Numbered from the stretch's first letter, positions 3,846 to 14,936 are shown. The stretch: 64,000 bases of DNA from Haloplanus sp. GDY1 (GCF_023703775.1 NZ_CP098514.1:2825998-2889997), one strand, 5' to 3'. Program-made: numbers and translations. The notes: generated by a model not told the origin, from the sequence alone.

Positions 3846-4400
3846 ATGATGGCGACGACCCACGCGGCCGTCGGCCTCCTCCTCGCCGTTCCCCTCACCG
3901 TCGTCGCGCCGGACCTGGCGCCGGTCGCCGCCCTCGCCGCGATGGCCGGCGGCGTCTTCCCGGACCTCGACCTGGTTGCCGGCGTCCACCGCAAGACGCT
4001 CCACTTCCCCGACTACTACTGGCTCGGCGCCCTCCCGGCCCTCGTCGCCGCCGCCCTCGCGCCCGGCGTCGCAACCGTCGCCGTCGCCTTCTTCCTCCTC
4101 TCGGCGGCCGTCCACTCCGTGAGCGACGCCTTCGGCGCGGGGACGGAACTCCGGCCGTGGGAGCGCACCTCCACGCAGGCCGTCTACCTCCACTCCCGGA
4201 GTCGGTGGCTCGCGCCGCGCTACTGGGTGCGCTACGACGGCGCGCCCGAGGACTACCTGCTCACCGTCGTCTGTCTCGCGCCCGGCCTGTTCGCCTTCGG
4301 CCCGACGGTCCGGCGCGTCGCCCTCGCGTTCATCGCCGTCGGCGGCGCCTACACCCTCGTCCGCAAGCGCCTGCCCGCGGTGGAGGAGCGGTTACTGTAG
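3846..4400 (+). CDS. YdjM-type membrane metal-dependent hydrolase-like protein
   Basis: 184 residues starting 2 bases after the cofH stop, so very likely co-transcribed. The N-terminal THAAVGLLLAVPLTVV, then GGVFPDLDLVAGVHRKTLHFP and HSVSDAFG, give the pattern of His/Asp residues between membrane helices seen in the YdjM/LexA-binding inner-membrane hydrolase family. Four to five hydrophobic segments place it in the membrane. The substrate is unknown. The 3' end overlaps the convergent cofG by 9 bases. Its place beside cofH does not by itself show a role in F420 synthesis. Confidence 0.82.
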   Translation: MMATTHAAVGLLLAVPLTVVAPDLAPVAALAAMAGGVFPDLDLVAGVHRKTLHFPDYYWLGALPALVAAALAPGVATVAVAFFLLSAAVHSVSDAFGAGTELRPWERTSTQAVYLHSRSRWLAPRYWVRYDGAPEDYLLTVVCLAPGLFAFGPTVRRVALAFIAVGGAYTLVRKRLPAVEERLL

Positions 4401-5519
4401 GGCGCGGTAGCGGCGGCCGGCGTCGTCGTCGGCCGCCAGGGCGTCACGGATCGCCGGCCGGAGCCACGTTCCGGGGGCGGCCTCGACCCCCGCCGGCCGG
4501 TGTGCCGACGGCAGGTACCGGCCGTGGGTCGGCAACCGCTCCCTGAGCGGCACCCCCGCGGCGTCCGCGAGGGCCTCCAGTTCCTCGACCGCCGGCCACG
4601 CGTGATCGGGATTGATGTAGTCGTCCGTCACCGGCGAGACGCCCCCCAGGTCGTCGACGCCGCAGTCGAGCAACTCGCGGGTCGGCGCGAGGTTCGGCGG
4701 CACCTGCACCGACACCGTCGCCGGCAGCGCGACCCGCGCCATCGCCACCGTCTCGCGCAACGTCCCGACGTCCGGGCGGTCGAAGTCCGAGCGCTCGTTG
4801 GGGACGACCGGCTGGACGATCACCTCCTGGACGTGGTCGTAGCGGTCGTGGAGGTCGGCTATCGCCAGCAGGCTCTCGGCCCGGTCGCGCCGCGACTCGC
4901 CGATGCCGACGAGGATGCCGGTCGTGAAGGGCACCGACGCCTCGCCGGCCGCCCGGATCGTCCCCAGTCGGCGCTCGGGGGTCTTCCGCCGGCTCCCCGC
5001 GTGGGCGCTCACGTCCGCCGTCGTCTCCAGCATCACGCCCATGCTGGCGTTGACCTCGGCCAGTCGGTCCAGTTCCTCGTAGCGAAGGTCGCCGGGGTTG
5101 CTGTGGGGGAGTAGCCCCTCCGAGAGCGCCATCTCGCAGGCGTCGTGGAGGTAGTCGAGGACGGTGTCGTACCCCCAGTCGTCGAGCCGGTCGTGAACCG
5201 CCGTGTACCGCTCGTCGGGCGCGTCACCGAACGTAAAGAGCGCCTCGGTGCAGCCGGCCGCGGCGCCGAAGCGGAGCTGCTCGCGGACCGTCTCGGGGCT
5301 CATCAGCGTCGCCTCGCCGGGGACGTCGTAGAAGGAACAGTAGGTGCAGGTGTACCGACAGGCCGTGGTGAGCGGGAGGAAGACGTTCCGGGCGAAGGTG
5401 AGTTCGGGCGCCGGGCCGACGTCCGCAGGGGTCACGCCGAGCAGGTCGTCGACCGCGCCGGCGTCGACCAGCGAGTCGGGATCGACACGCTCGTCGTCGG
5501 TTTCGGGTGCCCGCGACAT
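4392..5519 (-). CDS. cofG: 7,8-didemethyl-8-hydroxy-5-deazariboflavin synthase subunit CofG
   Basis: Radical SAM enzyme of about 375 residues. The motif TTACRYTCTYCSFYDVPGE (C-x3-C-x2-C) is near residue 55, and EALFTFGDAPDERY and PHSNPGDL are typical CofG phrases. It works with CofH to make FO for F420. The ATG at 5519 (MSRAPETDDE) is preferred to an in-frame start 27 bases upstream because the upstream codons look non-conserved. cofG is normally followed closely by cofC in haloarchaea; here about 6.8 kb of other genes separate them. Confidence 0.96.
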   Translation of the reverse strand: MSRAPETDDERVDPDSLVDAGAVDDLLGVTPADVGPAPELTFARNVFLPLTTACRYTCTYCSFYDVPGEATLMSPETVREQLRFGAAAGCTEALFTFGDAPDERYTAVHDRLDDWGYDTVLDYLHDACEMALSEGLLPHSNPGDLRYEELDRLAEVNASMGVMLETTADVSAHAGSRRKTPERRLGTIRAAGEASVPFTTGILVGIGESRRDRAESLLAIADLHDRYDHVQEVIVQPVVPNERSDFDRPDVGTLRETVAMARVALPATVSVQVPPNLAPTRELLDCGVDDLGGVSPVTDDYINPDHAWPAVEELEALADAAGVPLRERLPTHGRYLPSAHRPAGVEAAPGTWLRPAIRDALAADDDAGRRYRALQ

Positions 5520-5573
5520 GGCACCGAGTCCTCGCCCGACGGGCAAAAAGGTGTCACCTGCGGCGAGCCCGCG

Positions 5574-6068
5574 TCACCCGACGAACGCCAACCAGTCCCG
5601 GTCGGCGGTCGCCACGTCGACGTGTGAGTCGGCGTAGAGCCGGTCGAGGGAACGACACAGCGACTCGACGTCGTAGCTCCGCGACCCGTGGTACAGCGTG
5701 TGGTCCCGGGCCGACGTTTCGATGGTCAGCCGCGGCTTCGTGAGCAGCGACCCGGGCGTGAGCCGGATCGCCGTCATCTCGTCGGCGGGGACCTCGAAGC
5801 TCCGCTCGCCGTCGAGCAGCTGTGCCCGGGTGGCCGACCGGTACCGATCGCCAAGGTCGCGGGCGGCCCGGGCGCGGCCGTCGCGACGCAGCAGGAGCGA
5901 CTTGAACGACTCCTCGGCGAACACGGCGTACACCGTCCCGGGTTCGAAGAAGAGTTCGAACTGCTCGAACGTCCGGGGTGCGATGCGGTACCACTCGCTC
6001 ACCCACAGCCGGTCGTCGCCGTCCGGCGAGGAGACGACGGCCGGGGGATCGACGCTACTCCCCGTCAT
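5574..6068 (-). CDS. hypothetical protein downstream of the AtuA pair
   Basis: 164 residues, soluble, with no recognised domain. It has moderate Asp/Glu content, a WVSEWYRIAPRTFEQFELFF segment near residue 25 and no Cys motif or signal peptide. The start overlaps the end of the AtuA C-terminal-domain gene by 14 bases, so it is the last gene of the HMGR-atuA operon. Its function is unknown. Whether it belongs to the pathway or is the end of an inserted segment cannot be told from sequence. It ends about 55 bases from cofG. Confidence 0.72.
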   Translation of the reverse strand: MTGSSVDPPAVVSSPDGDDRLWVSEWYRIAPRTFEQFELFFEPGTVYAVFAEESFKSLLLRRDGRARAARDLGDRYRSATRAQLLDGERSFEVPADEMTAIRLTPGSLLTKPRLTIETSARDHTLYHGSRSYDVESLCRSLDRLYADSHVDVATADRDWLAFVG

Positions 6069-6432
6069 CGGGGGTCGAGAGCGGCGGGAGGGTCATCGTG
6101 AGTAGCGCCGCGCCGTAGGTCTTCCCCTGGGTGTCGTACCGGAGGCTGGTCTGGCCGCCCCCGTCGAGTCCCCGCTCACAGACGAAGTTGAACGCGCGGA
6201 CGTTGGGCATCGGATAGCGCCGAACCTCGCCCTCGACCAGGTCGCCGAAAAACGCCGCCACCCGCTCCGCGGTGAGTTGCTCGTCGAGGCGACGGTAGCC
6301 GTCGTCGGTCCACGCGACGACGCCGACGTTGAACCGGTCACCTTTGTCGCCCGAGCGGGCGTGTGCGAGTTCGTCGAGGCGGACGGCGCGATCCGGATCG
6401 CTCGACCCGCCCGTCGCCGCCGACTCAGTCAT
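6055..6432 (-). CDS. AtuA C-terminal-like domain protein (split AtuA subunit)
   Basis: 125 residues. The sequence RLDELAHARSGDKGDRFNVGVVAW matches the small ferredoxin-fold domain normally fused to the C-terminus of AtuA (acyclic terpene utilisation) proteins, and the conserved ARSGDKGD is intact. Here it is a separate gene overlapping the AtuA core gene by 8 bases, which points to translational coupling and a two-subunit complex. AtuA is genetically tied to citronellol/geraniol breakdown in Pseudomonas, but its reaction is not settled. Context suggests a role in branched acyl-CoA or isoprenoid metabolism. Confidence 0.85.
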   Translation of the reverse strand: MTESAATGGSSDPDRAVRLDELAHARSGDKGDRFNVGVVAWTDDGYRRLDEQLTAERVAAFFGDLVEGEVRRYPMPNVRAFNFVCERGLDGGGQTSLRYDTQGKTYGAALLTMTLPPLSTPDDGE

Positions 6433-7771
6433 ACACCGTCACCTCGGGGGTCGCCCAGCGCTTCGAGATCAGCGTCGGCCACGCGTCGACGATCCGCCGC
6501 GGCGACGGCCGTCCCTGGTCGGTCAGTCCCGCGACCGCGGGCGGCCCGGCGAGCGAGAGCGGGGCGAACTCCATCGCCAGCCGGCGCAGATCGCTCCGGG
6601 AGTCGCTCTTCGCCGCGAACCGGAGGAGGATCTCGTTGTAGGACTCCCGCGTCGGGGCGACCGGGCCGTGAGCCGCGTCGTGGCCGACGTAGTCGACGTG
6701 GGTGCGATCTATCGCCAGCCCGAGTTCGTCGATGCGCGATTCGAGGATCTCGGCGGCACGCCGCGCCTTCTCCAGCGCGTCCGGCCGGGAGTAGAGCAAC
6801 TTGCCCGCGAGCTTGAACCCGGCCGGGTAGTGGATCGTGACCTTGTACTCGTCCGTCGGTTCGGTGCCCGTCGCGCCGTCGATCGCCACCCGGTCCTCGC
6901 CCACCTGCGTCACCGCCGGGCTGGTGAAGTCCGCGACCACGTCCGGCGTGACGTAGGCCGTCGGGTCGCCGATCTCGTAGACGAGCTGCTCCGCCACCGT
7001 TCCCGTCGTCACTTTGCCGCCGGTGTCGGGCGGTTTCGTGACCGTAATCCGGCCGTTTCGGTCCACCTCCGCGATGGGGAAGCCCACGTCGTCGAACGAG
7101 ACGTCCCGCCACCCTCCCAGGTAGTTCCCGCCGGTCACCTGGGGTCCGCATTCGGTGAGGTGACCGGCGACCGTCCCGGCCGCGAGCAGGTCGTGATCGT
7201 CGCGCGTCCACCCGAACTCGTGAATCAGGGGACCGAGCGCGAGCGCCGGGTCCGCGACGCGGCCCGTGACGACCACGTCCGCCCCGTCGTCGAGGGCGTC
7301 CGCGATGGGGAACGCGCCCAGGTAGGCGACCGCCGCGCTGGCGGATTCGACCGCGTCGAACGGCTCGCCGGAGTCGATGTCGGCGAGGTCGTTTCCCGCG
7401 CGTTTGATCTCGGGAAGCCGGCCGAGGACGTCGTCGCCGGTGACGACCGCGACGCGGACGTCGACGCCGCGGTCGGCGGCGCGGTCCGTGACCGCGCGGG
7501 CACACGCCTGCGGATCGAGTCCGCCGGCGTTCGTGACGACCGACACGTCCCGGTCGGCGATGGTGTCGATGTGGTCGTCGACGACGAACTCGAGGAAGTC
7601 GGTCACGTAGCCCGGGCGGTCCGACCGTTCCAGACGCGCCAGGATGCCGATGGACACCTCGGCGAGATACTCGAGGGTGAGGTAGTCGACGGAGCCGTAC
7701 TCGAGGAGCCGTTCGGTGGCGTCCGGATAGTCCCCCCAGAACCCCGCGCCGTTCGCGATGTCGACGGTCAT
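6425..7771 (-). CDS. AtuA-family protein (acyclic terpene utilisation, DUF1446 core)
   Basis: 448 residues. The start IANGAGFWGDYPDATERLLEYG and the later DVVVTGRVADPALALGPLIHEF are typical of the AtuA/DUF1446 core. No membrane segment or signal is seen. Bacterial AtuA proteins are often about 600 residues because they include the C-terminal domain that is encoded separately here. The stop overlaps the start of that gene, and its own start overlaps the HMG-CoA reductase stop by 4 bases, so reductase, AtuA core, AtuA-C and the hypothetical gene form one operon. The family's enzymatic activity is unproven; acyl-CoA/isoprenoid catabolism is inferred. Confidence 0.88.
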   Translation of the reverse strand: MTVDIANGAGFWGDYPDATERLLEYGSVDYLTLEYLAEVSIGILARLERSDRPGYVTDFLEFVVDDHIDTIADRDVSVVTNAGGLDPQACARAVTDRAADRGVDVRVAVVTGDDVLGRLPEIKRAGNDLADIDSGEPFDAVESASAAVAYLGAFPIADALDDGADVVVTGRVADPALALGPLIHEFGWTRDDHDLLAAGTVAGHLTECGPQVTGGNYLGGWRDVSFDDVGFPIAEVDRNGRITVTKPPDTGGKVTTGTVAEQLVYEIGDPTAYVTPDVVADFTSPAVTQVGEDRVAIDGATGTEPTDEYKVTIHYPAGFKLAGKLLYSRPDALEKARRAAEILESRIDELGLAIDRTHVDYVGHDAAHGPVAPTRESYNEILLRFAAKSDSRSDLRRLAMEFAPLSLAGPPAVAGLTDQGRPSPRRIVDAWPTLISKRWATPEVTVYD

Positions 7772-9042
7772 TCCGAGAGTTCGTCGACGAGTTCGGTCGC
7801 GCGGTCCTCCCGGATCGCGTCCTCAGCGACCATGCGCTCGGCGATTTCGTCGACGAGGTGGCCCGGCGCGCCGGCCTGGATGGCGATGTTCTTGGCGTGC
7901 AGGCTCATGTGACCGTGCTGGATCCCCTCGCTCACGAGGGCGCGGAGGCCGGCCAGGTTCTGTGCGAGACCGACGGCCGCGAGGACGCCCGCGAACTCGT
8001 CGGCGGAGTCGACGTCGAGGATCTCCATCGCCGCCCCCGCCACCGGCTGTAACTGGGTCGCGCCCCCGACGGTGCCGATCTGGATCGGGAGTTCGATGCT
8101 GCAGACGAGGTCGCCGTCGGCGTCCACCTCGTAGTTCGAGAGGGGCGCGTAGCCGTCCCTGGCGGCGTAGGCGTGCGCGCCGGCCTCGATGGCACGCCAG
8201 TCGTTGAACGTCGCGGTGGTCACGGCGTCGATACCGTTCATGATGCCCTTGTTGTGGGTGGCGGCCCGGTAGGTGTCGCTCCGGGCGAAGGCCCCGGCGT
8301 CGACCATCCGGTCCCGGACCGTCGCACCGTCGAGTTCGCCGTCGTCCTCGGCCAGCGACTCGGGCGGGATCGTACACCGCGCCCGCGCGATGCGCCGGTC
8401 CGCGAGGTTCGAGAGGATGCGGAGTTCGACGTCGCCGCCGGTGAGCGACTCGATTTCGGGCGCGAGCGCCTCCGCCATCGTGTTGACGGCGTTGCCCCCC
8501 ATCGCGTCCTGTACGTTCACGACGAGGTGGGTGACGACCATCGGCCCGCGGTCCGTATCGAGGACGCGGGCGGTGACCTCCTCACAGCCGCCGCCGTGGT
8601 CGACCAGGACGGGATCCTGCTCGTTCGCCAGGTCGATCAGGTCGTCCTCGGCTTCGAGGACGCGCTGTTTCGCGGCGAACGGATCCGCGATATCGACCGC
8701 CTGGATCTGGGCGATCATGCGGGGGCCCGTGACCTGCGTCGTGAAGCCGCCCCGCTCGCGGGCCATCCGCGCGCCGTAGGACGCCGCCGCGACGACGCTC
8801 GTCTCCTCGACGGCCATCGGGACGAGCCGATCCTCGCCGTCGATGCGGAAGTTCGTCGCGACCGAGAGCGGGTACTCCAGCGTCCCGATCACGTTTTCGC
8901 TGATCGTGTCGGCGCGGACCGGATCGAGCCCTCGGCCGTCGAGTGCGGCGACCGCGTCGTCCGAGAGGTCCGCACGCTCCGCCACGATCTCTCGACGCGC
9001 GTCGATATCCTCCTTGTAGAAGCCGGGGATGCGTGAGTCCAT
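7768..9042 (-). CDS. mvaA: class II (degradative-type) hydroxymethylglutaryl-CoA reductase
   Basis: 424 residues, a full-length class II enzyme. Family landmarks: SENVIGTLEYPLSVATNF near 50, VEETSVVAAAS (Glu80, putative catalytic), DAMGGNAVNT around 179-188 in the dinucleotide-binding part, HNKGIMNG with Lys265, GIDAV with Asp272, and GHMSLHAKNIA with His378. Class II enzymes interconvert HMG-CoA and mevalonate. In Pseudomonas mevalonii they oxidise mevalonate for growth, though class II enzymes also serve biosynthesis in some lineages. Haloarchaea normally use a class I enzyme for lipid synthesis, so this is probably an extra enzyme. First gene of a four-gene operon; a strong TATA box 28 bases upstream predicts a leaderless mRNA. 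Confidence 0.93.
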   Translation of the reverse strand: MDSRIPGFYKEDIDARREIVAERADLSDDAVAALDGRGLDPVRADTISENVIGTLEYPLSVATNFRIDGEDRLVPMAVEETSVVAAASYGARMARERGGFTTQVTGPRMIAQIQAVDIADPFAAKQRVLEAEDDLIDLANEQDPVLVDHGGGCEEVTARVLDTDRGPMVVTHLVVNVQDAMGGNAVNTMAEALAPEIESLTGGDVELRILSNLADRRIARARCTIPPESLAEDDGELDGATVRDRMVDAGAFARSDTYRAATHNKGIMNGIDAVTTATFNDWRAIEAGAHAYAARDGYAPLSNYEVDADGDLVCSIELPIQIGTVGGATQLQPVAGAAMEILDVDSADEFAGVLAAVGLAQNLAGLRALVSEGIQHGHMSLHAKNIAIQAGAPGHLVDEIAERMVAEDAIREDRATELVDELSE

Positions 9043-9065
9043 TCGTCCCCGGTATTGAACGATCC

Positions 9066-9076
9066 TTATATAAAAT
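9066..9076 (-). promoter_or_regulatory. TATA box of the HMG-CoA reductase operon
   Basis: In gene direction the sequence reads ATTTTATATAAGG. It is the most A/T-rich stretch nearby and is centred about 28 bases before the ATG at 9042, the spacing expected of a leaderless archaeal transcript. Confidence 0.7.
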
Positions 9077-9189
9077 TACTGCAGGTCGGGCGTCCCGACG
9101 CGGTACGATGACTGTCGAGATCCGTCCGTGATCTCCCGGCGGTCCGGCCGGCAGGTAGAGTTTACTGTGTGGCGTCTCCTCGGTCGCGT

Positions 9190-10206
9190 ATGGGTGTAAC
9201 CGTCTCCGTCCCCGGGCGCATCGTCGTCGCCGGCGATCACTCCACGCTCCTGGGTGGCCCGCGCATCGCCGGCGCACTCGACGTGCGCCTCCGCGTTCGC
9301 GTCACCGAACGCGACGACGACACGATCATCGTTCGCGGTCCACTCGGACGGAAAGACACCACGCTCGGTTCGCTGTTCGACCCGGCCGACTCGACCGCCG
9401 TCCTGACTGTCAGTCGGTCCGGCCGCCGACTCCCCATCTACGCGCTCCTCCGACGGATCCTGGCGACGGTCGACCGCGACGGCCCCGACGAGTTCACGGG
9501 CTTTACCGTCGACATCGACGTCGACGAGGCGTTCCCGCTCGGCGTCGGTCTCGCGTCGTCGACGGCGCTGACCGTGGCGCTCACGGCCGCACTGACCGAG
9601 ACGTTCGGGGAGCGACAGTCGAACGAGCGCGTCGCCGACCTGGTCGCCGACTTCGAGGCCGACCTCTACGAGGACGCCGCCCCCATCGATCCGGCGGTCA
9701 TCGTCTCGGGCGGGCTGGTCTTCGGCGACTCGACCGTCACCGAGCGGACGACGGCCGACCTGCCGGTGCTCGTCGCCACCGCCGAGACCCGTCCCAGCAG
9801 GGCGGCGATCCGCAGCCAGGTCGAGCGCCGGCGCTCGATCACCGGGTCGCTCTACGACGACGTGCTGGCCGCGAGCGACGCGGCGACCGAGACGCTCTGG
9901 CGACACCTCCGGAACGGCGACCACGAGGCGACGCGGGAACTGATCACCTTCTACGGGGAGTTGCTCGACGCGCTCGGCTTTTCGAGCTGGCCGATGCCAC
10001 AGCTCCGGTCGACGGAACTCGTCCAGGGGGCCGACACGCTGGGCGTGAAACAGTCGGACTTCGGCGAGCGCGCGACTCTGGTCTCGTTCCCGACGCCGGG
10101 CGACGACACGGCCGAACTGGAACGGACGCTCGGCCGGACGGCGGGGAGAGTGGTTTCGACGGTGACAACTTCTCGGGGGCTCGTCTACGGCGACACGCCC
10201 GAGTGA
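9190..10206 (+). CDS. GHMP-kinase family protein, mevalonate-kinase-like
   Basis: About 338 residues. The N-terminal VPGRIVVAGDHSTLLGGP corresponds to the mevalonate kinase signature (PGK-x-LFGEHAVVYG). PLGVGLASSTAL (116-127) corresponds to the GHMP phosphate-binding loop P-x3-GLGSS, with Ala replacing Gly. A candidate catalytic Asp sits in APIDPAVIVSGG. I expect ATP-dependent phosphorylation of mevalonate or a related alcohol, or a decarboxylase-type relative. The ATG at 9190 is chosen because the GHMP signature begins directly after it; a TTTACTG element lies about 28 bases upstream. It is divergent from the class II HMG-CoA reductase, which supports a shared substrate. Probably a paralogue of the biosynthetic kinase. 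Confidence 0.82.
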   Translation: MGVTVSVPGRIVVAGDHSTLLGGPRIAGALDVRLRVRVTERDDDTIIVRGPLGRKDTTLGSLFDPADSTAVLTVSRSGRRLPIYALLRRILATVDRDGPDEFTGFTVDIDVDEAFPLGVGLASSTALTVALTAALTETFGERQSNERVADLVADFEADLYEDAAPIDPAVIVSGGLVFGDSTVTERTTADLPVLVATAETRPSRAAIRSQVERRRSITGSLYDDVLAASDAATETLWRHLRNGDHEATRELITFYGELLDALGFSSWPMPQLRSTELVQGADTLGVKQSDFGERATLVSFPTPGDDTAELERTLGRTAGRVVSTVTTSRGLVYGDTPE

Positions 10207-10330
10207 CCGCGCACGGCCGGCCGGCGCGACGACGCTTCCGACCGGTCGGCCGTCGGTGGGCGGTTCCGGCGCTATCCACGCCGAAACGTACTCTCTCCGA
10301 CATTTTCTGTCCCGATCTCTCAAGGGTAAT

Positions 10331-10338
10331 TTTATAAA
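10331..10338 (+). promoter_or_regulatory. TATA box of the symporter operon
   Basis: TTTATAAA lies about 28-30 bases before the ATG at 10365, in DNA that is otherwise GC-rich. It supports 10365 over an in-frame ATG at 10344, which falls too close to the box. Confidence 0.65.
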
Positions 10339-10364
10339 ATTAGATGATATTGTTGCCAGTTACC

Positions 10365-10832
10365 ATGTCGAAACGATGGAATCGTGACAGAACGGTGATT
10401 GGAGTGCTCGTGGTGTTGGTACTCATGTTAGCCGCGATGCTCGCAGGGGGATCGACGGGACAGATACTGTTTTCGTACGCGACGATAGCGCTCTTCGGGC
10501 TCTACATCCTGCTCGGGGTGGAGGGGTCGGCCGAGCGCTACTCGTACCGGCCGTTTCTCGCCGTCATCGGCGCTCTCACGGTCATTCTGGCGGTCGGGTT
10601 CGCCCTGCTGTGGAACTTCCACTTCGCGAACCCGTCGTACACGAATCCGGAGTACTGGCTCGGGTTCCCGCGGGCCACGTCCGTCCTCGTGTACTGGCTC
10701 TGGCTGCCGCCCGCGCTGGTGTTGATGTTCGCCTACCCGTACCTGTTCGAGACGTACATCTGGAGCGAGGCGGAGGCCGAGGAGTTCCGGCGGATGGACG
10801 GTCCCGAGGCGACCGACGGAGGTGAGCCGTAA
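10365..10832 (+). CDS. small membrane protein paired with the SSS symporter
   Basis: About 155 residues with four hydrophobic segments (roughly 12-32, 36-52, 65-85 and 108-130) and a charged, acidic C-terminus. I do not recognise a family. Its stop overlaps the start of the sodium:solute symporter by one base (TAATG), so the two are translated together. Short multi-helix proteins encoded just before SSS transporters are a recurring arrangement (DUF3311- and DUF4212-type partners), and an accessory role in transport is the natural inference. This one is longer than most such partners. Confidence 0.78.
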   Translation: MSKRWNRDRTVIGVLVVLVLMLAAMLAGGSTGQILFSYATIALFGLYILLGVEGSAERYSYRPFLAVIGALTVILAVGFALLWNFHFANPSYTNPEYWLGFPRATSVLVYWLWLPPALVLMFAYPYLFETYIWSEAEAEEFRRMDGPEATDGGEP

Positions 10833-12313
10833 TGGCGGCGGACCCGCTGATCACCGGCATCGTCGTCGTCTACCTGCTGATCGTGCTCGGCATCGGCATC
10901 TGGGGATACCGACAGACCGAGTCCACCGAGGACTTCCTCATCAGCGGGAAGCGCTTCGGCATCTGGGCGGTCGCGTTCTCGGCGTTCGCGTCGATCATGA
11001 GCGGGTTCGGCTTCATCGGCGGTCCGGGCCTCTTCTACAGCGGCGGCTACGCGTTCCTCTGGATCGCCATCGTCGCCCCCCTCGCGTTCCCGATTTCGTG
11101 GTTCGTCCTCGGGAAGAAGATGCGGCTCATGGCCGAAGTGGAGCGGATCCTGACCATCCCCGACGCCGCGGACGCGCGATACGACAGCGACGCGGTGCGC
11201 TTTTTCGTCGCGCTGTCGGTCCTGCTCGGCGTGATATCGTATCTGGCCGTCCAGCTCAAGGCGATGGGGTTCGTCCTCGCGGACATCCTCGGAACGAGCG
11301 AACTCGTCGCCGTCCTCCTGGCGACGGTCGTCATCGCGGCCTACACCATCGGCGGCGGCATGATCGCCGGCGTGTTCACCGACCTCGTGCAGGGCGGCAT
11401 CATGGTCGTCGGGAGCATCGTCGTCTTCTTCTACGCGCTGGATTACGGCGGCGGCTTCACGCAGATGAGTCAGGAACTCGCCAGCAACACCCCGGAGTTC
11501 GCCGGTGCCTTCGGCACCTTCCCGGTGATGCTCGCGCTGAGCTGGTATTTCCTGTTCACCATCGGGAACTCCGGCCAGCCCCACATGGCGCACAAACTGT
11601 ACATGATCCGCGACGTGAACCTGCTGAAGTGGGGCGCGCCCATCGCGGGGCTCTCCTACTTCCTCTCCTCGCTCATGATGCTCGGCATCGGCATCTCCGT
11701 GCGAGCGGGCGTCGAAACCGGCGCGCTCGACTCGCTCTCGAACCCCGACATGGCCGCGCCCTTCTTCCTCTCGAATTTCGTCTCGCCCGTCATCGCCGGC
11801 GTCGTCTTCGCCGCCGCCATCGGCGCGATCATGAGCACTAGCGACGCGTTCATCAACATCGGCGCCGCGAACCTCGCGCGCGACATCCCCGAGAGTCTGG
11901 GCTTCCAGTACGACTCCGACCGACAGGAACTCTGGGTGAACCGCCTCGGGAGCGCCGCGATCATCGTCATCTCCCTCTTCCTGGCTTACTACGTCCAGAT
12001 CCTCGTCGGCATCCTCGGCGTCGTCGGCTGGGCGCTGTTCGCGGCCCCCATCGTCCCGCTTCTCGGGATCGGTCTCAACTGGAGCGGCGCCACCCGGGAG
12101 GGCGCCCTCGCCGCCGTCGTCGTCTCCCTGGTCGTCAACCTCGGACTGGCCGTGAGCAGTTCGCTGTACGGCGTCTCGCTCCCGCACGGCGTCGTCGCCG
12201 GCGCCTTCTCGCTCGTCCTCTCCTCGATCACGCTGATCGCCGTGAGCCTCGTGACGAGTTCCTACTCCCGCGAGGAGATCGCCGACGAGATCCACAAGGT
12301 CGTCACGGCCTGA
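10832..12313 (+). CDS. sodium:solute symporter (SSS family)
   Basis: 493 residues with about 13 hydrophobic helices. The start YLLIVLGIGIWGYRQTESTEDF followed by ISGKRFGIW is the classic SSS opening. GSIVVFFYALDYGGG and AIGAIMSTSDAFIN (the conserved region after TM8) support the family. It should import an organic solute using the Na+ gradient. The substrate cannot be read from sequence. Because it shares a locus with a class II HMG-CoA reductase and a mevalonate-kinase-like gene, mevalonate or another small carboxylate is a fair hypothesis. Co-transcribed with the small membrane protein upstream. Confidence 0.92.
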   Translation: MAADPLITGIVVVYLLIVLGIGIWGYRQTESTEDFLISGKRFGIWAVAFSAFASIMSGFGFIGGPGLFYSGGYAFLWIAIVAPLAFPISWFVLGKKMRLMAEVERILTIPDAADARYDSDAVRFFVALSVLLGVISYLAVQLKAMGFVLADILGTSELVAVLLATVVIAAYTIGGGMIAGVFTDLVQGGIMVVGSIVVFFYALDYGGGFTQMSQELASNTPEFAGAFGTFPVMLALSWYFLFTIGNSGQPHMAHKLYMIRDVNLLKWGAPIAGLSYFLSSLMMLGIGISVRAGVETGALDSLSNPDMAAPFFLSNFVSPVIAGVVFAAAIGAIMSTSDAFINIGAANLARDIPESLGFQYDSDRQELWVNRLGSAAIIVISLFLAYYVQILVGILGVVGWALFAAPIVPLLGIGLNWSGATREGALAAVVVSLVVNLGLAVSSSLYGVSLPHGVVAGAFSLVLSSITLIAVSLVTSSYSREEIADEIHKVVTA

Positions 12314-12361
12314 CTCCGGCCGGGACACCCCGTTTCGCGGCGTCCCCCGTCGCCGACCGCG

Positions 12362-12976
12362 TCACGCCCGCCGCACCCCGACCCGCCCCTCGCCGGCGTC
12401 GAGTTCGAACCCCGCTTCCCGGAGCCACGCCGCCGCCTCGCCCTCGCCGTGGAGTAGCACTTCCACCAGGTCCGCGGGTTCGTCCACGTCGGTCGCCAGG
12501 CGCATCGAGTCGACGACCGACGCGGTGGCGCCGGCGTCGCGGGCCGCGCGCAGGTGGTCGCGGACGGAGACGCCGTGGAAGTCGGTTCGGAAGTCGGGGT
12601 GGGCGACGACGAGGGCGTTCGTCCCGCCGCCGCGGCCGGGGGCGACGACCACGTCGGACCCCTCCGCGGCGTCGACGAGGCGGTCGACCGCCGCCGGCGT
12701 GAGCAGCGCCAGGTCCGCGACGGCGACGCCGACCGGATCGGACCCCCCGAGCCGGGCGTTCACGGCCGCCGAGAGCGGTCGCTCGTCGACGGTCACCGGG
12801 GCATCGACCGACACGGACGCCGTCGCGACGACGTCGGGGTCGTGTCCGGCCGCTCCGAGCGCGTCGATGACGTCACGGAGCATCGCCCGCGCGAAGGCCG
12901 CCCGCTCGTCGGCGTCGAGAACCGGGTCGAGTCGCGTCTTGGGCCGCGTCGCCTCGAACGGGACGAGAAATCGCAT
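12362..12976 (-). CDS. cofC: 2-phospho-L-lactate guanylyltransferase CofC
   Basis: 204 residues. The N-terminal MRFLVPFEATRPKTRL nucleotide-binding segment and the later PGRGGGTNALVV and FHGVSVRDHL match CofC. It activates 2-phospholactate (or phosphoenolpyruvate) with GTP to give the guanylylated intermediate that CofD attaches to FO in F420 synthesis. Its start abuts the stop of the surface-anchored gene upstream, and that gene overlaps cetZ, so all three are probably one transcript. In haloarchaea cofC usually sits next to cofG, with the tubulin-like cetZ1 nearby; here cofG is about 6.8 kb away. Confidence 0.93.
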   Translation of the reverse strand: MRFLVPFEATRPKTRLDPVLDADERAAFARAMLRDVIDALGAAGHDPDVVATASVSVDAPVTVDERPLSAAVNARLGGSDPVGVAVADLALLTPAAVDRLVDAAEGSDVVVAPGRGGGTNALVVAHPDFRTDFHGVSVRDHLRAARDAGATASVVDSMRLATDVDEPADLVEVLLHGEGEAAAWLREAGFELDAGEGRVGVRRA

Positions 12977-13777
12977 TCAGCCGAGCGGGTCTTCGGGGCC
13001 CTGCTGGGAGCGCCAGTAGACCACGCCACCGACGATCAGGCCGACGAGGAGCAGCCCTCCGACGGCGTAGATGATCAGCTGCTGGGTCTGCTGGGACTGC
13101 TGGGCCTGGTTCGCCTGCTGTGTGGCCCGGTTGGCGAGGTTGGTCGCCACGTCGAAGCTCCCGTCGTTGTACGCGGCGACGGCGTCGTCGTAGTTGGCCC
13201 GTGCGTCGGAGGGGTTCGCCCCGGCGGAGCGCGCCTGCTCGATGGCGGTGCCCGCCTCCTCGATGGCGGTCCGGGCCGACGCGCTCGTCTCGGTGTAGTG
13301 GTGGGTCCGCCAGGCGTCGACGGTGCTGCTGGCTCCGCCCTGCTGGCCCCGCGTGAGCTCCATCAACAGGAACTCCTGGGGCGGGTCGTAGGTGTAGGAG
13401 TCCACCTCGGGGACCGTGCCGGTGATCCGGACCTCCACCTCGGCGGTCCCGTCGCTCGCGGCGACGTCCAGCCCGGAGAAGGACTGGCCGGTGGGTTCGA
13501 CCAGGTTCACCTGGGAGCCGGTCTGGTCGTAGAAGACGACCGTCCACGACACGTCGGTCAGTTCGGTCGCCCCCGAGAGCTGCCACTGCTCGCTCTGGGG
13601 GTTCTGATACAGCTCTTCGAGCGTGACCGTCGCCGAAATCTGCGTGCCGACCTGCGCCTCCTCGGGGACGTCCTCGCCAGTGACGGACACTGCCGCCGCC
13701 GGAACGGTCGCGGCGAGCAGCACGACCAGCGCGGCGAGGACGACCCTAGAAGAGCGATTCGAGTTCGTCCTCGTCAT
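12977..13777 (-). CDS. secreted, C-terminally membrane-anchored protein next to cetZ
   Basis: 266 residues. There is an N-terminal signal sequence (SSRVVLAALVVLLAATVPAA) and a beta-rich extracellular region to about residue 150. An Ala/Asp-rich helical stretch, a Gln-rich linker (about 213-228) and one TM helix (about 231-250) with a short cytoplasmic tail follow. The start overlaps the cetZ coding end by 32 bases, and the stop is immediately followed by cofC. No known domain is recognised. Its position between cetZ and cofC suggests a conserved haloarchaeal neighbourhood, but a role with the CetZ cytoskeleton is only a guess. Confidence 0.82.
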   Translation of the reverse strand: MTRTNSNRSSRVVLAALVVLLAATVPAAAVSVTGEDVPEEAQVGTQISATVTLEELYQNPQSEQWQLSGATELTDVSWTVVFYDQTGSQVNLVEPTGQSFSGLDVAASDGTAEVEVRITGTVPEVDSYTYDPPQEFLLMELTRGQQGGASSTVDAWRTHHYTETSASARTAIEEAGTAIEQARSAGANPSDARANYDDAVAAYNDGSFDVATNLANRATQQANQAQQSQQTQQLIIYAVGGLLLVGLIVGGVVYWRSQQGPEDPLG

Positions 13778-14936
13778 CTTCGACTAGATTCTGGAGATTG
13801 GCTTCGCTCTCTTCGCGGATTTCGCTGATGTTGTCTTGGGCCTCGATGGCGACCTGTTGCAGTTCCTTGATGCGGGGGACGTTCGTGACGCCGGACAGGA
13901 GGATGGCGGAGGCGACGAAGTCGCTGTCGTTGACGGGGTAGTCGCCGCCGCGGACCTCCATGCTCCCGGTCTGCTCTTCGAGCCACTTCCGCCCGCGCTC
14001 GATGCCCTTCCGGTTCAGGTAGGCGGAGGGTCCGGCCATCACGAGGAGGGCGCGCTCGGTGCCGTCGATTTCACAGGGGAGGGTCAACCGACCCAGGGCG
14101 GCCTTGCGGACGAGGCTCGTGATGCGGTTGGTGGTGTTGGCGGAGTCGAGTTGGTCCTCGATGGACTCGTCGTTGCCCGTGAGCTTCGAGAGGAGCCCGC
14201 CGGATTTCTTCTTCTGCGGTTCGACCGTCTCGGAGGCGTAGCCGACGGTCGAGACGCCGCCGCCGGAGAGGGTGTTGATGATCTCCGAACTGTCGACGAC
14301 GGATTCGGCGACCTCCTGACCCTCGCGGACCTCGCCCGCGCCGAACAGGATGCCGAACCGGCGGACGATCTCGTCGTTGATCTCGTCGTAGCCGCTCTGG
14401 ACCGACTCCCCCGTCTTCCGCCAGGCGTCGTTGTCGAAGACGAGGAGGTTGTCCACCTCGTTGACGAGCGTCTGGAACGAGCGGGCGGCGTTGAGCGTGT
14501 AGATGCCCCCCTCGTCGCTCCCGGGGAGGATGCCGAGCCCGTAGACGGGTTCGGTGTAGATGCGCTTGAGGTGCTTCGCGAGGACCGGCGCGCCGCCGCT
14601 CCCGGTGCCACCCCCGAGGCCGGCGACGACGAGGAAGGCGTCGACCTCGTGGACGGGGATGCCGTCGATGGCGCCCTGGATCTCGCCGATGTCCTCCTCG
14701 GCGATCTCCGCGCCGAGTTCGTTGTCAGCGCCCACGCCGTGTCCCTTCACGCGGGACTGGCCGATGAGCACGCGCTGCTCCTGTGGAATGTGTTCGAGCC
14801 CCATCAGGTCGGCCTTGGCAGTGTTGACGGCGACCGCCGCGCGGACGATTTCGCTCCCCGTCCGCTGATCGTACTCGAGGAACTTGTCGACGATCTTGCC
14901 CCCGGCCTGCCCGAAACCGATCATGGCCAGTTTCAT
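13746..14936 (-). CDS. cetZ1: CetZ tubulin/FtsZ-like GTPase, CetZ1-like
   Basis: 396 residues. The start MKLAMIGFGQAGGKIVDKF and the tubulin signature GLGGGTGSGGAP (107-117) mark the family; ILPGSDEGGIYTLNAARSF follows. The acidic C-terminus ends in DELESLF. CetZ1 in Haloferax controls cell shape and motility rather than septation. The chromosomal context (cofC next to it, cofG in the wider cluster) matches what I recall for the cetZ1 orthologue, so CetZ1 is favoured over other paralogues. A GAGGGG sequence 9-14 bases before the ATG could serve as a ribosome-binding site, and a TTTATG element lies further upstream. Confidence 0.93.
   Translation of the reverse strand: MKLAMIGFGQAGGKIVDKFLEYDQRTGSEIVRAAVAVNTAKADLMGLEHIPQEQRVLIGQSRVKGHGVGADNELGAEIAEEDIGEIQGAIDGIPVHEVDAFLVVAGLGGGTGSGGAPVLAKHLKRIYTEPVYGLGILPGSDEGGIYTLNAARSFQTLVNEVDNLLVFDNDAWRKTGESVQSGYDEINDEIVRRFGILFGAGEVREGQEVAESVVDSSEIINTLSGGGVSTVGYASETVEPQKKKSGGLLSKLTGNDESIEDQLDSANTTNRITSLVRKAALGRLTLPCEIDGTERALLVMAGPSAYLNRKGIERGRKWLEEQTGSMEVRGGDYPVNDSDFVASAILLSGVTNVPRIKELQQVAIEAQDNISEIREESEANLQNLVEDDEDELESLF

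Follow-up and report, generated by a model that had tools for sequence, protein, structure and literature searches.

A movable seven-gene block between cofG and cofC of Haloplanus sp. GDY1 as a candidate unit for mevalonate catabolism

Mevalonate catabolism of the Pseudomonas mevalonii type consists of an HMG-CoA reductase (HMGR) encoded by mvaA, an HMG-CoA lyase encoded by mvaB and a transporter. The known substrates of HMGR are HMG-CoA and mevalonate, and the aspartate D146 of the P. mevalonii enzyme is linked to the use of NAD(H). HMG-CoA shares the group HOOC-CH2-C(OH)(R)- with citramalate and 3-hydroxy-3-isohexenylglutaryl-CoA. Among the open-access papers listed in literature searches on mevalonate catabolism, none reported it in archaea. 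A stretch of 64,000 nucleotides from Haloplanus sp. GDY1 (the window) was analyzed, in which seven genes spanning 6.7 kb (5574-12313) occupy the interval between cofG and cofC (table 1). Based on the anatomy of the locus, the presence of a second HMGR, the conserved linkage of the genes, the missing classical lyase and the homology of AtuA, the best-supported reading, held with moderate confidence, is that the seven genes form a movable catabolic block for mevalonate.

The gene list of a preliminary description of this DNA (a class II HMGR, a split AtuA pair, a mevalonate-kinase-like protein and a Na+ symporter with a small partner) was borne out by Pfam and NCBIfam, and is extended here by U164, a fourth operon gene that was absent from it. 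The four genes on the minus strand are arranged in the order HMGR, AtuA, AtuA ferredoxin-like subunit and U164 and overlap by 4, 8, and 14 nt, and therefore make up one operon. Facing this operon on the plus strand are the kinase-like gene and, downstream of it, the genes for a small membrane protein (TM162) and a sodium/solute symporter (SSS). U164 is without a family in the Pfam and NCBIfam searches, its structural model (pLDDT 80) has weak matches to PH-like folds, and one guess is that it may act as an accessory protein.

Table 1. Features of the cofG-cofC interval and its flanks, in window coordinates.
Feature	Coordinates	Strand	Support and remarks
cofG (flanking gene)	4392-5546		Pfam/NCBIfam
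U164, 164-aa protein, last gene of the HMGR operon	5574..6068	-	Without Pfam/NCBIfam family; kept in 5/5 blocks
AtuA ferredoxin-like small subunit	6055..6432	-	PF23544 1.1e-28
AtuA, predicted large subunit of HMG-CoA lyase	6425..7771	-	PF07287 7.3e-136; homology to citramalate lyase subunit A
Class II HMG-CoA reductase, first operon gene, predicted NAD-linked	7768..9042	-	PF00368 1.4e-106; TIGR00532 427.6 bits
TATA-like box, HMGR operon	9066..9075	-	TTTTATAWAA; one-base variant in congener G393
Mevalonate-kinase-like GHMP protein	9190..10206 (longest ORF from 9169)	+	PF00288 4.9e-10; mevalonate kinase models below cut-off
TATA-like box upstream of the small membrane protein	10330..10339	+	TTTTATAAAA, identical in congener G393
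Small membrane protein TM162, symporter partner	10365..10832 (longest ORF from 10344)	+	Without family; adjoins SSS in 5/5 blocks
Na+/solute symporter (SSS), predicted mevalonate importer	10832..12313	+	PF00474 9.2e-49; PutP/PanF models below cut-off; 5/5 blocks
cofC (flanking gene)	12362-12976		Pfam/NCBIfam
CetZ-like (flanking gene)	13746-14936		Pfam/NCBIfam

Like the P. mevalonii system, the block combines a related class II HMGR that carries the catalytic and NAD-linked residues with a transporter linked to it and a predicted lyase reaction, and its HMGR is additional to a biosynthetic route (a class I HMGR and a locus for mevalonate kinase, MVK, and isopentenyl phosphate kinase, IPK, in this genome). 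It differs in that the AtuA pair stands in place of an mvaB-type lyase (PF00682 family), which is absent from the block and not found above cut-off in the genome, in the use of an SSS symporter where P. mevalonii-type systems use TctA or TRAP transporters, and in an archaeal host that also makes mevalonate by a class I HMGR. With citramalate lyase subunit A (CmlA; 9erq, 9evf) the block shares a homologous large subunit and the predicted cleavage of a tertiary hydroxyacid with release of acetate, but the predicted substrate of its AtuA is HMG-CoA and the linkage is to HMGR, not to glutamate/methylaspartate metabolism. The AtuA system of terpene breakdown shares with the block the two Pfam families (AtuA and ferredoxin-like domain) and a predicted type of substrate (3-hydroxy-3-alkylglutaryl-CoA), but the AtuA listed for Thauera is a single protein of 615 amino acids (PMC4847356), whereas the block encodes the two parts by separate genes and contains no terpene genes. 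Finally, the haloarchaeal mevalonate pathway (class I HMGR, MVK, and IPK) has the metabolites mevalonate and HMG-CoA and a mevalonate kinase homolog in common with the block, but the biosynthetic genes are located elsewhere (L153 and L154), whereas the block is patchy in its distribution, movable and equipped with a predicted lyase. Among 78 class II HMGR loci outside the haloarchaea, TctA is encoded nearby in 11, TRAP in 7, and HMG-CoA lyase in 8, counts that are lower bounds (the loci include many short ones and others that probably serve biosynthesis); AtuA was found near none of the 78 (blastp, E 1e-4). By analogy, these loci follow the same logic as the block with different parts.

The neighborhood of cofC was compared within the genus (twelve genomes, eleven of them congeners). 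The cofG gene directly adjoins cofC in nine of the 11 congeners, which confirms within the genus the compact neighborhood named in the preliminary description and speaks, at the same level, against an ancestral origin of the wide spacing. Aligned with the window, the cofG-cofC site of the congener G393 (L151) matches as far as 5549 and then from 12345 onward (approximately 87% at the nucleotide level) with nothing between, and both the nucleotide and the junction alignments place these two window positions next to each other, with cofG adjoining cofC. The same genome carries the block at another place in its chromosome (L152), where window 5588-12314 is aligned (82%) and the same seven genes are present in the same order. 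An empty site together with a block elsewhere shows that the 6.7 kb are a discrete extra block, a single unit that has occupied two chromosomal places. The seven genes are a movable block, and an island in the sense that the same unit is found elsewhere and that a relative has the empty site. Inspection of the block ends and junctions by eye revealed no mobility genes or clear repeats. A foreign origin based on composition was considered and rejected, the GC content of the block (0.683) being no outlier relative to the window (0.706, sd 0.027 per kb).

In the other two congeners (G396 and G199) cofC is located in a different neighborhood, with cofG missing from the approximately 33-35 kb that were read beyond cofC. 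A role of the cofG-cofC site as an insertion hot spot was discarded, a rearrangement being as likely as a second insertion in these genomes. The region that replaces cofG beside cofC (L149/L229 in G396, L150/L230 in G199) contains genes that were named by eye as a molybdopterin-type oxidoreductase, a PQQ-like protein, NMT1-type ABC proteins and sarcosine/dimethylglycine-type oxidases.

AT-rich boxes are located approximately 25-35 nt upstream of the HMGR and small-membrane-protein starts, a spacing that suggests leaderless transcripts. The predicted starts of such transcripts are 9042, 9190, and 10365. The pattern TTTTATAWAA has three matches at two places in the window, both of which are these boxes (mean of the shuffles 0). 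The starts at 9190 and 10365 agree better with the promoter boxes and with G393 than the longest open reading frames do.

Within the order, class II HMGR was found in 18 out of 392 genomes (10 out of 95 genera) and AtuA in 12 out of 392. Four genomes contain both (0.55 expected, hypergeometric P = 0.0012, not corrected for relatedness) and the two genes are adjacent in each of them. Together with the block of G393 this gives five blocks, distributed over three families; U164, the AtuA pair, HMGR and the TM162-SSS pair are common to all five. The kinase-like gene is present in two of the five (this genome, G000, and G393) and in no other sampled genome, and the related blocks that lack it belong to one further congener and two other families. 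Each of the 14 AtuA loci examined has the small-subunit gene next to AtuA.

The closest PDB relatives of the block HMGR are 6dio (6e-132) and the P. mevalonii enzyme 1qax (2e-126), with class I enzymes at approximately 1e-5, and all four catalytic residues of the P. mevalonii enzyme (E83, K267, D283, and H381) are identical in the block enzyme. In the phylogenetic tree the haloarchaeal class II HMGRs group together (100/100), with the block HMGRs and the f12-family HMGRs sharing one subclade. These two groups keep an aspartate at the position of D146, where the other haloarchaeal subclade has a glycine; aspartate at this position goes with NAD(H) use (PMC12292504). A class I HMGR is present in this genome (C1:1875873-1876991) and in the other four block genomes, and an ordinary mevalonate kinase gene adjoins an isopentenyl phosphate kinase gene elsewhere in the genome (both named from their sequences and a family-model match). 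The class I HMGR and separate mevalonate kinase that the preliminary description had asked for are thus both there, which removes its reservation that a sole HMGR would have to be biosynthetic.

The mevalonate-kinase-like protein scores below the cut-offs of the MVK models (NF003036, 95.7 vs. 403 bits; TIGR00549, 83.2 vs. 163 bits), and the canonical MVK of the genome is likewise below the NF003036 cut-off (271 bits). The glycine-rich GHMP motif 3 (TGAGGGG) is lost from the protein, reading SDFGERA in this genome and SDFGKRA in G393, and the other motifs read PGR for PGK, GDH for GEH, and ASS for GSS; an aspartate that aligns with one in the canonical MVK is kept. The proteins of the two species are 73% identical and have the degraded motif state in common, which would fit a retained role other than that of a kinase, with a mevalonate sensor as one guess. 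Salvage by the kinase-like protein is unlikely because the glycine-rich motif is lost and the protein is present in only two out of five blocks. Of the two fates proposed earlier for imported mevalonate, local phosphorylation into lipids is therefore unsupported, motif 3 being lost in both copies, three blocks having no such gene and an ordinary MVK-IPK locus existing elsewhere. The catabolic fate is supported by context: a class II HMGR beside a class I HMGR, the NAD(H)-linked aspartate, a transporter in five out of five blocks and an AtuA pair homologous to a tertiary-hydroxyacid lyase.

AtuA and its partner carry the domains that characterize the AtuA/CmlA family (the AtuA domain PF07287 and the ferredoxin-like subunit PF23544, both above cut-off). 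A profile from the AtuA alignment matched CmlA (9erq) with an E value of 3.7e-11 over approximately 330 positions, and the structural model of AtuA (pLDDT 86) matched 9evf in Foldseek (E 1.8e-24, TM 0.76) and in a second comparison (VIA; Z 32.2 and rmsd 3.7 with 414 residues aligned, next entry Z 10). The name of 9erq is "Acyclic terpene utilization AtuA family protein" and the title of 9evf "Citramalate lyase - ADP - pyruvate complex". AtuA is a distant homolog of citramalate lyase subunit A, a tertiary-hydroxyacid lyase; no sequence relative of the ferredoxin-like subunit was found in the PDB. The presence of ADP and pyruvate in 9evf may, by analogy, leave room for a nucleotide role in AtuA. 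The two proteins are only 16-17% identical, so AtuA could act on a different tertiary hydroxyacid or on the CoA ester of one. No HMG-CoA lyase above the NF004283 cut-off was found in this genome or in the other four block genomes (best match in this genome 75.5 bits, cut-off 246). The check for this enzyme had been proposed in the preliminary description, and its negative outcome makes AtuA the candidate lyase.

In the predicted pathway, mevalonate would be imported by the SSS symporter together with TM162, and the class II HMGR would oxidize mevalonate + CoA + 2 NAD+ to HMG-CoA. The AtuA/AtuA-ferredoxin pair would take the place of HMG-CoA lyase; its cleavage of HMG-CoA would most likely fall between C3 and C4 and give acetate and acetoacetyl-CoA, from which a thiolase would then produce acetyl-CoA. 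Uptake, the direction of the oxidation, the lyase activity, its product and the regulation are predictions alike. The full proposal, that archaea which make their lipids from mevalonate also degrade it with a two-subunit AtuA/Cml-type enzyme, a second kind of HMG-CoA lyase that is non-homologous to the first and forms acetate and acetoacetyl-CoA, is put forward tentatively as a serious possibility.

A class II HMGR alone is no proof of catabolism since it is the only HMGR found in five haloarchaea (G039, G012, G185, G161, and G058; L107, L108, L110, L113, and L114; the G185 genome is 72% complete), and the earlier premise that a class II reductase implies mevalonate use was too strong. Neither the "degradative" label of TIGR00532, which is also given to both of the sole-copy class II enzymes that were tested, nor D146, which is also kept in the sole-HMGR genomes G039, G012, and G185, was accepted as proof of direction. 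The five sole-copy genomes imply a replacement of class I HMGR in two families. They have no AtuA nearby and lend some weight to a biosynthetic or backup enzyme that supplies lipid synthesis with mevalonate of its own making or passes imported mevalonate on to it, with an unrelated role for the AtuA pair. This explanation is very doubtful in view of the class I HMGR retained in all five block genomes, the ordinary MVK-IPK locus, a local kinase-like protein that has lost motif 3 and occurs in only two out of five blocks, and the translational overlap of HMGR and AtuA, which occur together in three families.

It is improbable that the block degrades another compound, for example a different branched hydroxyacid or an acyl-CoA derived from a terpenoid, in whose breakdown HMG-CoA would arise as an intermediate or by-product and be handled by the class II HMGR: the block contains no acyl-CoA dehydrogenase, carboxylase or hydratase genes, and its conserved first operon gene encodes HMGR, whose known substrates are HMG-CoA and mevalonate, although the substrate of the symporter is a prediction and other haloarchaeal AtuA pairs are found in different catabolic contexts. 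The remaining explanation keeps the catabolic block and changes the cut, the AtuA pair acting like the classical HMG-CoA lyase to produce acetyl-CoA and acetoacetate, the latter to be activated by an acetoacetyl-CoA-synthetase-like ligase. Such ligase-like proteins are encoded in this genome (380 bits, cut-off 521), so acetoacetate may be the product and the direction of the cut is not fixed; the distance between AtuA and CmlA is likewise too great to fix it. The classical cut is nevertheless unlikely, as acetate is a product of the reactions named for AtuA relatives (titles of 9erq and 9evf; PMC4847356) and a PF01144 CoA-transferase is absent from four out of five block genomes (G000, G199, G097, and G323), in line with a product other than acetoacetate.

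If the block does serve mevalonate catabolism, archaea can feed on the compound from which their own membrane lipids are built, and the question arises how degradation is kept apart from synthesis (the class I reductase vs. the NAD-linked class II reductase). For the poorly characterized AtuA family this would mean a substrate that is simple and can be tested, and for HMG-CoA lyases a second kind, whose acetoacetyl-CoA product needs no reactivation. The block resembles a complete kit for the uptake and breakdown of mevalonate, with a predicted splitting enzyme unlike that known in bacteria.

More distant AtuA pairs were observed in other haloarchaeal surroundings. In the haloarchaeon G374 (L219:1078-11946) the pair is accompanied by genes for acyl-CoA dehydrogenases, a carboxylase, an enoyl-CoA hydratase, an acyl-CoA ligase and a CoA-transferase, an Atu/Liu-like gene set that would, by analogy, work along the lines of the bacterial pathways of that name. 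At four further loci (L224, L226, L227, and L228) distant AtuA pairs are located near genes that were named by eye as enolase-superfamily, thiamine-pyrophosphate-enzyme-like and thiolase-like. The AtuA family probably has other substrates in haloarchaea too.
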